Shown: in pieces, positions 15,001 to 22,451 of the stretch | Layout: every line of letters begins with the position of its first letter | Numbering within the stretch: the first letter of the stretch is position 1 | DNA from: a virus | Virus record (IMG/VR): IMGVR_UViG_3300001680_000217 | Span: 1-26,298 of that record | DNA: 26,298 nucleotides | Reading direction: 5' to 3' (one strand) | Position numbers and translations under genes: made by a program | Notes under the pieces: generated by a model | Databases searched by the model: none | The model's input: only the letters and a program-made list of their open reading frames with translations | Told to the model about the DNA's origin: nothing

Positions 15001-15264
15001 ATGGCTCAGAGGAATGGTATGAAAGAAGGTGAAGACTTTAATGATTATGAAAAGGTAATGAAGCACGCTATTATGTCTACAAAGGAGAATGCGGAGATCG
15101 TTATTCCTGACATTCCTGTTTTTAATGTAAAGACTGGAGAGGAGACTTACCATTCTCTTCGTCAATTGGTTCCTTATCTTGAAGATCTAAGGGCTAAGTA
15201 TGTTAAAAAGATGAAGATAGAGAATATGTATCAGTACGGTTGGGACTTCCCAGCGAAGAAGTAA
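12028..15264 (+). CDS. Divergent single-subunit (T7-family) RNA polymerase, probably virion-packaged
   Basis: The 1078-residue protein shows the core of single-subunit RNA polymerases in order. INALNGAAHRIN (400-411) matches the T7 block AINIAQNTAWKIN. R537 with Q548 and ARG (553-555) matches the region after T7 R425, though the T/DxxGR motif itself is degenerate (GGAKR). Motif A is EIDGTANG with D664 (T7 D537). DVYTITSKMFNEL (696-708) matches T7 DIYGIVAKKVNEIL. Motif B is RSMAKQPLMTFGYG with R731, K735 and Y743, the exact 4 and 8 spacing of T7 R627/K631/Y639. Motif C is QIFDGV with D944 (T7 D812; the T7 His is Phe here), preceded by APVLVTHAIDS as in T7 APNFVHSQDGS. Both metal-binding Asp are present, so it should be active. 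Its size is close to the 1106-residue catalytic core of N4 vRNAP. It is the last late-arm gene, after ejection proteins, hence the packaging inference. About 390 N-terminal residues are unassigned. Confidence 0.88.
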   Translation: MGYANINIGNKTPNPQKNIDADWGKQVAEDQKLKSATGVVENAGGYSSVEDVVNMQDLLDQSNYDVALGVKSPRDAAMGVMQEIPPSQGNRAGGDLFTGPNVEHYSDMDLVNQGVGPQGSAAGPLRDAINYDLQDEALSIAGDPIVLKDHTDYSQMVINEIGNVASGMSSNQKIGMDYISRTAEELKMEPSTVAEYLRTWVTDFKTLENNGIPEAFSDTALHAVLHTLKMQKLSEAKKEQTGEKETVAEAQEKENASMATHESIGALIESAFQVKNGTPTTRALGGALALRAVTDALGSVDYGRGHIEDKNNAGLFQTKLINTTGEKTLWVSELTEAGINAAESLSALGESIIPGMKKDVNPTPQLNVKTGEIATVSRVLQRKEDKRRRAGKAVDTNKGINALNGAAHRINKEVAQLISDSLQNPEAVDVIEGPGYMNIKGIEWNGAIHKRKDDGSTYRVRYVIQNEINGQPNPNPGRKVPNPMYGRDPNEKSQWLTEPNNGDFMKDLVFNETLQWVADHVGDEAFYYTHFIGGAKRVHVDQTLGNYQSNKLARGLIESAIPYAYSLKGDGAVALKAGILKKFGLNKAKHGSNKQLAAQFDSIVKPWATLQATSPGGFHPELIELAGKEEGWSSLSAINEGIKLFNAERNGDSEYRSGFITEIDGTANGVAINSMYAGDRRSAVLTGMIGSDPDNDVYTITSKMFNELAAQHQGSLGPRFARVWNQLTADRSMAKQPLMTFGYGAGNPAIAAGFKEELWKRFDEDAEFKEKAMDILGVDNHADLATFVNESADIMVSAVGTNFPALKTLSRVISAITSTAVLLGIPPHTITDNNDFIEFGLSNRVIDEDKSFAASVRKGKGVSSKQRGRIISISPMMRENDPAGLSADRYGTFDAKTMHVSTLKASSQAPVLVTHAIDSLVMMRSMDKMKQKLGNNFYAAQIFDGVMMMPAHAQMFSDALHRELIHMGKNYSIVNSLLESLYNQDPGRFKEMAQRNGMKEGEDFNDYEKVMKHAIMSTKENAEIVIPDIPVFNVKTGEETYHSLRQLVPYLEDLRAKYVKKMKIENMYQYGWDFPAKK

Positions 15265-15268
15265 AAGC

Positions 15269-15318
15269 AAAAACCCCACAGGGATCCATTACGGAACCTT
15301 GTGGGGTTTTCTTTTTTA
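15269..15318. terminator. Bidirectional intrinsic terminator between convergent arms
   Basis: An 11-bp perfect stem, 15270-15280 (AAAACCCCACA) with 15300-15310 (TGTGGGGTTTT), extends inward by a G-T wobble and two G-C pairs. After one A-A mismatch there are three more pairs (15285-15287 with 15293-15295) around a 5-nt loop. On the + strand it is followed by a T-rich run (TTTTCTTTTTT); on the - strand by TTTTTGCTTTT. It lies in the 60-nt gap between the two convergent gene arms, so it should stop transcription from both sides. Confidence 0.9.
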
Positions 15319-15324
15319 ACTTGG

Positions 15325-21444: not shown

Positions 21445-21987
21445 TTAAAACGGGATGTCTTCATCGTCAGCTTCAACTTTTACGTCTGCTAAAGCTACTT
21501 CCTTTTGTTTCTCGAATGAGAATGTTGGTGTGAACTCATCTCCACTTGTTTCAAACTCTACAAGTTCTAATACTTGTACTGCTTGTAGTTCTAATGACAC
21601 GTTGTCTTTGCCATCACGACTCCAACCATGTGAAGAACACTGGATGTTACATACAGAGCCATTACCGATCAAATCAGTAAATGGATTTCCGTATGCGTCT
21701 ACTACTACTACTCCCTTCTTAGGCTTTCCACCTACACCGAATGTAGTTGACTTCTTAAGTTTGACTTGGCGTAATCCATCTTCTAATACTAGATCGTTGT
21801 CCATGTCTCTCTTGAACTTAGGGAAGAAACCAGTCTTCTTATAAGCATCTGCTTGTGCGTCTGATAAGATTACTTGAAGCGTCCAGTTGTCCATACCTTC
21901 ACCTTGGTATGGCTTCTCTACGTTATCGTCATTTAGTTTGGCCCATTGAACCTTTACGTTATTAAACTCATAGTTATTCTTTGACAT
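21445..21987 (-). CDS. ssb: Single-stranded DNA-binding protein (T7 gp2.5-like role)
   Basis: A 180-residue protein with the layout of phage SSBs related in role to T7 gp2.5: an OB-fold-like first 150 residues (VKVQWAKLN, DNWTLQVILS, LVEFETS) and an acidic tail. The tail ends DDEDIPF, almost identical to the DDDIPF end of bacterial SSB, which recruits many host repair and replication proteins. Aromatic and basic residues (KFKRD, QVKLKKSTTF) could contact DNA. The start has an AAAAGGA SD. It is placed in the replication/recombination block between a small protein and the helicase. In N4, host SSB supports virion RNA polymerase transcription; a parallel here is inference. Confidence 0.8.
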   Translation of the reverse strand: MSKNNYEFNNVKVQWAKLNDDNVEKPYQGEGMDNWTLQVILSDAQADAYKKTGFFPKFKRDMDNDLVLEDGLRQVKLKKSTTFGVGGKPKKGVVVVDAYGNPFTDLIGNGSVCNIQCSSHGWSRDGKDNVSLELQAVQVLELVEFETSGDEFTPTFSFEKQKEVALADVKVEADDEDIPF

Positions 21988-22005: not shown

Positions 22006-22251
22006 TTAGACTGTTGTTGATTCTACGTTTTCTTTTATTTCACTAAGTTGTTTAGCTATTAACTCTAAACCACCCATTTGTGAGTCTGTGTCACTTAAAT
22101 CCATACACTCTCTTATAATGTCTGAAGATGTAGCGATACCTTCTAAGCTTTCAGATATATTCTCTAGATTTTTAGACACTCCATTTATTGCACTTACAAT
22201 TCTACTTATTTGATCTATAAATAGTATTTCCATATGTTGTTCATTTGTCAT
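22006..22251 (-). CDS. Small helical protein of unknown function (81 residues)
   Basis: The start is ATG 22251, with AAAAGGAG 7 nt upstream; the frame continues further upstream without stops, but that part lacks an SD and overlaps a strongly structured region, so it is not coding. The product is a likely coiled coil or helix bundle with heptad-like Ile/Leu spacing (ILFIDQISRIVSAINGVSKN, then LENISESLEGI) and an acidic tail. No family recognised. It is the first gene after the structured intergenic region, followed by SSB after 18 nt. Confidence 0.65.
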   Translation of the reverse strand: MTNEQHMEILFIDQISRIVSAINGVSKNLENISESLEGIATSSDIIRECMDLSDTDSQMGGLELIAKQLSEIKENVESTTV

Positions 22252-22278
22252 CTTATTACTCCTTTTATTATTATTAAA

Positions 22279-22304
22279 ATACCCCGTATAAAACATACAG
22301 GTAT
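22279..22304 (-). terminator. Hairpin with short T run upstream of the 81-residue gene (weak terminator or leader structure)
   Basis: On the - strand ATACC (22304-22300) pairs with GGTAT (22283-22279). The stem continues through a U-G wobble and four more pairs, with one bulged G and a five-nt loop. It is followed by TTTTAATAAT, then the SD and start codon of the next gene. Shape suggests a leaky intrinsic terminator or a translation-leader structure between the polymerase gene and the SSB block. Confidence 0.4.
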
Positions 22305-22316
22305 ATTGGTTTGGTC

Positions 22317-22407
22317 GAGAACCTCCTAGAAGGCACATCGTGCCTTCATTTGTTATGTAGCTAAGAGCACGACTTCTTAGCTTCAACTTAGTAAGCGGAA
22401 GGTTCTC
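22317..22407 (-). ncRNA. Structured three-way-junction element after the T7-like RNA polymerase gene
   Basis: An outer stem is formed by 22317-22324 (GAGAACCT) with 22400-22407 (AGGTTCTC), plus two G-C pairs past a bulged A. It encloses two hairpins: 22329-22347 (8-bp stem GAAGGCAC, 3-nt loop) and 22359-22382 (8-bp stem AGCTAAGA, 8-nt loop). All three stems are perfect or nearly so. The region lies in a 200-nt gap without a credible gene, directly downstream of the 811-residue polymerase gene. T7 has an RNase III processing hairpin at the equivalent place. Candidate roles are RNase III site, hairpin promoter, or stable RNA. Orientation is given as that of the flanking genes. Pairing was found by eye. 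Confidence 0.6.
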
Positions 22408-22423
22408 TATAAGGGTGCTATAG
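22407..22423. promoter_or_regulatory. Inverted CTATA/TATAG element, possible phage promoter
   Basis: CTATA (22407-22411) and TATAG (22419-22423) form a 5-bp inverted repeat around a 7-nt loop, just after the polymerase gene. TATAG at the start site is typical of T7- and SP6-type promoters. The rest does not match either, and no second copy in the window confirms a consensus, so this is only a candidate. Confidence 0.25.
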
Positions 22424-22451
22424 GAATGTTCTTAAGTATCAAGCACTTAGC

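Follow-up and report, generated by a model that had tools for sequence, protein, structure and literature searches.

Directly behind the T7-like RNA polymerase gene of the viral record IMGVR_UViG_3300001680_000217 lies a foldable stretch of DNA, and the question it raises is which RNA is folded here and what this fold might do for the genes that come next. The window, by which we mean the whole stretch analyzed, comprises 26,298 bases. Reading from the left end, structural genes occupy the plus strand up to about 15.3 kb; the remainder, through to the right end, carries replication genes on the minus strand, including those for PhoH, a RusA-like resolvase, an exonuclease, a helicase, a gp2.5-like single-stranded DNA-binding protein (SSB), a single-subunit RNA polymerase, and a primase. 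The polymerase and SSB genes are both minus-strand genes, and it is therefore the RNA of this strand that concerns us. An unusual non-coding stretch of about 200 nt after the polymerase gene had been described in a sequence-only reading of this DNA, and exactly 200 nt (22252-22451) in fact separate the stop codon of the polymerase from the next open reading frame (ORF) with an ATG start. A longer, TTG-started form of this small ORF (22006-22386) crosses the folded region and gave no sign of translation, and a search of the window for tRNA and tmRNA genes found none. Our preferred reading, to which we give a probability of about 0.55, is that the fold belongs to the structured 5' leader of a phage-polymerase transcript that runs into the small ORF, the SSB gene, and the helicase gene.

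On the minus strand, the 91 nt from 22317 to 22407 fold with -36.0 kcal/mol, as against -19.4 ± 3.1 kcal/mol for 200 dinucleotide shuffles (z -5.36), none of which was as good (0/200). The plus-strand fold of the same interval is nearly as stable (z -4.88), as perfect inverted repeats would lead one to expect. Architecturally, the minus-strand RNA is a three-way junction in which a 10-bp outer stem with one G.U pair encloses two perfect 8-bp hairpins (Table 1), and the coordinates and pairings proposed for it from the sequence are correct, as is the claim that a T run is missing after both hairpins. Three features had gone unmentioned there, namely a terminator-like hairpin 3 that starts 9 nt beyond the 91-nt structure, a promoter motif abutting this structure, and a complementarity between its two hairpins.

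Table 1. Features of the polymerase/SSB interval in the window, followed by regions in other viral contigs (L numbers).
Feature	Coordinates	Strand	Basis
Single-subunit (T7-like) RNA polymerase gene, 811 aa	22452-24887	-	PHROG 414, E 3.6e-109
Predicted phage RNA polymerase promoter ATTCCTATAGCACCCTTATAG, predicted +1 at 22407	22407-22427	-	Motif shared with close relatives
Outer stem, 5' arm GAGAACCUUC, beginning at the predicted +1	22398-22407	-	Fold
Hairpin 1, AGCUAAGA[AGUCGUGC]UCUUAGCU, 8-nt loop at 22367-22374	22359-22382	-	Fold
Loop-1 strand of proposed loop-loop helix, GUCGUGC	22367-22373	-	Complementarity
A-rich 11-nt linker ACAUAACAAAU	22348-22358	-	
Hairpin 2, GAAGGCAC[GAU]GUGCCUUC; GAAG[GCACGAUGUGC]CUUC if loop-loop paired	22329-22347	-	Fold
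Hairpin-2 strand of proposed loop-loop helix, GCACGAU	22337-22343	-	Complementarity
Outer stem, 3' arm GGAGGUUCUC	22317-22326	-	Fold
Hairpin 3, terminator-like, then weak U tract	22278-22307	-	
Small ORF, 81 aa, without family match, between leader and SSB	22006-22251	-	
gp2.5-like SSB gene	21445-21987	-	PHROG 112, E 8.6e-8
Hairpin pairs with UGUGGUAG/CUACCACA loops, unrelated contigs	L200:1395-1512; L216:3321-3434; L205:11639-11751; L229:11678-11796; L201:4474-4593; L155:2558-2671		
Tandem-promoter regions ahead of terminase, relatives	L018:10112-10590; L016:6777-7376; L020:3664-4050; L031:5348-5776; L032:6318-6792		

To place the start of this RNA, we turned to the close relatives, i.e., ten contigs whose polymerases are 59-71% identical to that of the window. 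In all ten, the motif ATTCCTAt..tG(t/c)CCTTATAG (in a second rendering, CCTTATAGAG) or a close variant is located right behind the polymerase stop. The motif is present two to three times per genome, with one or two extra sites ahead of the terminase region in most of these relatives. Scanning the ten whole contigs with up to two mismatches gave 22 matches, of which 20 were exact, as opposed to one match for the reversed control pattern in the same contigs. Moreover, the motif ends in TATAG, as does the T7 promoter, and by analogy with the latter (TATA|G) we infer 22407 as the predicted +1. The motif thus looks like a promoter of this polymerase, a predicted one, and provides a candidate promoter for a group of uncultured phages. 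More conspicuously, the predicted +1 coincides exactly with the first base of the outer stem, and since the fold begins there, the simplest view of the 91-nt structure is that the next message starts with it. Both the promoter motif and the fold starting at its predicted +1 are strongly supported by sequence, and the folded RNA is probably the 5' end of the next transcript. A general rule that transcripts of this group start with a 5' hairpin was also tried and not upheld, with a 5'-terminal hairpin being found at about half of the other promoter sites and absent from about half.

Structured leaders occur in the same interval of the relatives, and these, together with the promoter motif, support the earlier suggestion of a control point separating the polymerase from the SSB/helicase block. 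Specifically, the leaders of L002, L004/L005, and L010 have two hairpins with complementary loops. Searches with polymerase profiles added about 30 more distant contigs, and in most of these (about 20 relatives) a hairpin pair of this kind, with the loops GUGGUAG and CUACCAC, is positioned 90-220 nt ahead of the SSB start. The two-hairpin element was found down to about 46% polymerase identity. In the nearest relative, L002, the loops read GUAGCAG/CUGCUAC, and so have changed at two positions on both sides relative to GUGGUAG/CUACCAC while keeping the same register. The linker in the relatives is mostly A-rich and 8-14 nt long, and the distant members usually have U5-U8 behind hairpin 2 and a promoter-like sequence shortly before hairpin 1. 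In one contig (L122), the element lies 390 nt ahead of the SSB ATG, and the order promoter, element, small ORF, and SSB is like that of the window.

An alignment of 20 elements from the relatives gave 22 of 30 stem pairs changed on both sides (14.1 ± 1.8 when shuffled, 0/500), and a covariation score of 0.364 versus 0.157 for shuffled alignments and 0.06-0.11 for slid partners, such that the hairpin stems of the relatives' element are well supported by covariation. For the stems proposed from the window alone the outcome is divided: the two-hairpin arrangement is conserved with covariation among the relatives, and the outer stem is not, a counterpart having been sought in the relatives and found in none. 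The loop-loop helix pairs in 98.6% of the alignment cells, and the GUGGUAG/CUACCAC loops are conserved far more strongly than the stems; as this helix is nearly invariant within the 20-element set, its pairing rests mainly on the exceptions, L002 and the window. Altogether, a two-hairpin module with covarying stems and complementary loops at the polymerase/SSB boundary of most relatives is supported. No such element was seen in L003, L007, L074, and L075, which makes it dispensable. As separate observations, loop 2 runs on as ACCUCC in most of the distant members (L080:4089-4197, L084:4542-4650, L091:3630-3742, and L092:3081-3191), a continuation similar to the anti-Shine-Dalgarno sequence of 16S rRNA, such that pairing with a ribosome site is conceivable, and in L081:3478-3588 hairpin 2 is kept (CACCACACCTCC loop) and hairpin 1 is lost, this being a natural half-element.

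Whether the window belongs to this family was judged on several properties. Its leader lies downstream of a phage-type promoter in the interval from the polymerase gene to the SSB gene, and has tandem hairpins, a first loop of about 8 nt, and an A-rich linker. About 7 bp can form between its loops, in the register of the family, though four hairpin-2 pairs must open for this. The family loop sequences GUGGUAG/CUACCAC are not present in the window or in L002, which have other, compensated ones, and a U run directly behind hairpin 2 is absent from the window, L002, and L004, with hairpin 3 of the window having a weak one. A covariance model made here (R1) found no match in 22252-22451 with filters off, and because R1 misses the window leader, it is position, architecture, and the complementary loops that speak for membership, and not sequence. 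The best R1 match in the window (15218-15321) was rejected as a family member, since it is an ordinary-looking terminator between convergent genes. Here, a strong terminator-like hairpin with a U tract lies between the converging structural and replication blocks, and R1 matches it on both strands.

With regard to the window's own loops, the proposed helix has 7 bp, six of them Watson-Crick and one G.U, and differs from GUGGUAG/CUACCAC at three positions changed on both sides, in the same register. As in the family, loop 1 has 8 nt and the kissing bases abut the 3' arm. None of 3000 leader shuffles reached the kissing score. Across 672 stretches of the contig, however, at least one other non-overlapping stretch scored slightly better (-34.1 versus -33.3), and about 1% of random loop-1 sequences would be expected to match hairpin 2, so that loop complementarity alone is not rare within these 26 kb. 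The kissing form also needs four good pairs of hairpin 2 to be opened and competes with its upper half (GCAC/GUGC). By rough energies, the nested fold has -36.0 kcal/mol, and the open fold has -25.3, to which the loop helix would contribute about -9.3; so modeled, the kissing and closed-hairpin-2 states would be in near balance, which suits a switch but does not demonstrate one. For the window itself the evidence for this 7-bp pairing is suggestive, and we consider kissing between its two hairpins rather probable.

As for how the preferred 5' leader might work, we suggest that it acts in cis and sets how much of the SSB-operon message is made or survives. In the window, the outer stem would hide the 5' end from end-dependent decay, and indeed its first four leader bases are paired with P = 1.00; given the mixed 5'-terminal pairing at the promoter sites of the group, such protection is plausible in the window and not a family rule. 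The paired-hairpin module, in turn, may gate a downstream terminator-like hairpin or a ribosome site. In the distant members, kissing of the terminator loop by hairpin 1 could tune partial termination by the phage polymerase, a role that hairpin 3 would take over in the window. Attenuation, 5'-end protection, and SSB autoregulation are all candidate mechanisms, with partial termination (attenuation) being preferred for the family owing to the U run behind hairpin 2 in distant relatives. If the supply of SSB is what is controlled, this would be a second and structurally different answer to the problem that T4 solves with its gene 32 pseudoknot.

Such a comparison brings forward the strongest alternative, which we nonetheless regard as unlikely, that the leader serves autogenous control as in T4 gene 32, with SSB nucleating on the folded RNA, spreading over the A/U-rich leader behind it, and blocking ribosomes. 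The likeness is that of a folded element in a phage SSB leader followed by A/U-rich sequence and a ribosome site, a layout that T4 and RB69 use with a pseudoknot and that stays while the operator sequence diverges between these phages (PMC535899). Here too, A/U-rich sequence and the ribosome site come after the element, and nearly all polymerase relatives possessing the element have it in their SSB leader. Against this, the T4/RB69 operator is a pseudoknot of about 28 nt, as opposed to two hairpins with kissing loops, and the SSB concerned is gp2.5-like and not gp32-like, hence of a different family. Moreover, the 81-aa ORF intervenes between leader and SSB in the window, many relatives have a U run and 150-200 nt between the element and SSB, unlike the T4/RB69 arrangement, and similar elements of unrelated contigs lie ahead of genes other than SSB.

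Slightly less likely again is a stand-alone small RNA of 100-150 nt, extending from promoter to terminator, whose complementary loops would let it act in trans or form an RNA oligomer, with phi29 pRNA as a comparable user of loop-loop pairing. Distant relatives have the outline of such an RNA, in that a promoter-like motif comes a short way ahead of the element and U5-U8 after it, and loops conserved far beyond their stems would be expected of a shared partner. Yet the window, L002, and L004 are without the U run behind hairpin 2, and the different loop sequences of L002 and the window argue against a fixed trans partner.

In T7, the interval after gene 1 contains the promoters phi1.1A/B, the RNase III site R1.1, and the primary origin, the last of these consisting of a polymerase promoter and an A/T-rich stretch after the polymerase gene. 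The window resembles this interval in having a polymerase promoter and a structured RNA directly after the polymerase gene, but the structure is another one, begins at the predicted +1, and has helices that are short for a typical RNase III site. It is improbable, in our estimation, that the leader is the primer RNA of a T7-like primary origin, since strong folding of the 5' leader would be unexpected for a primer and comparable leaders precede other genes in other contigs, even though the gene position and parts (a phage promoter followed by A/T-rich sequence) are T7-like. The match to a T7 RNase III site put forward in the sequence-only reading fares worst, being favored only by a position after the polymerase gene that is shared with T7. 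Transcripts of T7 are processed by RNase III, with R1.1 as a 60-nt hairpin substrate cut from a precursor (PMC4858673), whereas the longest helix here is 10 bp and short for a typical substrate, the structure starts at the predicted +1 and not inside a precursor, and the outer stem is not conserved. For the preferred leader, the loose T7 analogy gives way to a testable anatomy that runs from a predicted start site through a pair of hairpins with their proposed loop-loop helix and a terminator-like hairpin to the SSB operon.

Tandem-hairpin attenuators such as ANTAR targets, and likewise the guanidine-II riboswitch, also place two hairpins side by side, of which the second adjoins or overlaps a terminator. 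Unlike these, the element described here has no ACGR loops, forms a long Watson-Crick loop-loop helix, and has no match in Rfam. A three-way junction is contained in phi29 pRNA as well. In this RNA, the loops of two hairpins are complementary (PMC7357161), though the likeness is one of analogy only, as phage, position, and gene context are unrelated and the loop helix has 4 bp versus 7 bp here.

Neither the window nor the elements of its relatives matched Rfam 15 at gathering or permissive thresholds, the sole gathering-level match being a tRNA elsewhere in L002, and blastn of the window region and these elements against GenBank phages gave no meaningful match. What emerges is a covarying RNA element at a fixed gene boundary that is absent from Rfam 15 and unmatched in GenBank phages by blastn. 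Moreover, an exact search of viral contigs for the window's own leader start returned none, no relatives of the polymerase were found in bacterial genomes, no convincing element was seen near the polymerase of the cultivated phages HTVC119P and CRP-7, and a literature search on the loop sequences or on kissing loops in such phages found nothing relevant. A scan based on SSB led to 13 further contigs (L257, L263-L273, and L278), in which an SSB 68-73% identical to that of the window follows a different gene and lacks such a leader, suggesting from gene order that SSB moves between phage backbones.

Outside the polymerase group, a pattern search of viral contigs (TGTGGTAG...CTACCACA) gave at least 134 distinct matches, and among the 134 matches listed, seven have a contiguous flanking stem of at least 10 bp, as compared with 0.58 expected from shuffled flanks. 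Judging by gene names read from translated sequence and not by family search, such pairs are found upstream of a primase-region ORF (L200) and of a TnpB-like gene (L229), and next to replication genes (L216 and L205), with weaker cases (L201 group) preceding a GIY-YIG endonuclease. It was also noticed that hairpin pairs in contigs unrelated in gene content often end with a U run just before an ORF. These pairs look like the same element beyond the polymerase group. We entertain, tentatively, that a widespread, unlisted class of phage leaders acts as two-state switches in unrelated phages and counts the window among its divergent members. In the design of such a class, a first hairpin, its 8-nt loop typically being UGUGGUAG, would kiss a terminator-like hairpin (loop CUACCACA) ahead of replication or mobile-element genes.

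Two further observations concern other loci in the relatives. Ahead of the terminase genes there are two tandem promoter copies, and in the roughly 400-600 nt behind each of them no plausible gene lies on the sense strand. The first of these stretches has a conserved fold of about 140 columns in which 21 of 60 predicted pairs are double-changed (z -3.2 in L018), and this fold had no match in Rfam; the second stretch in L018 folds no better than its shuffles. Finally, a repeated motif, AAGTAAAAGTCAAGGCTATTCGTTCCTCATAGAGTAGCCTTTATC, precedes small genes at three sites of a single relative (L020, minus strand, at 2527, 2885, and 3147; also L019, minus strand, at 230), and may be another repeated control element.
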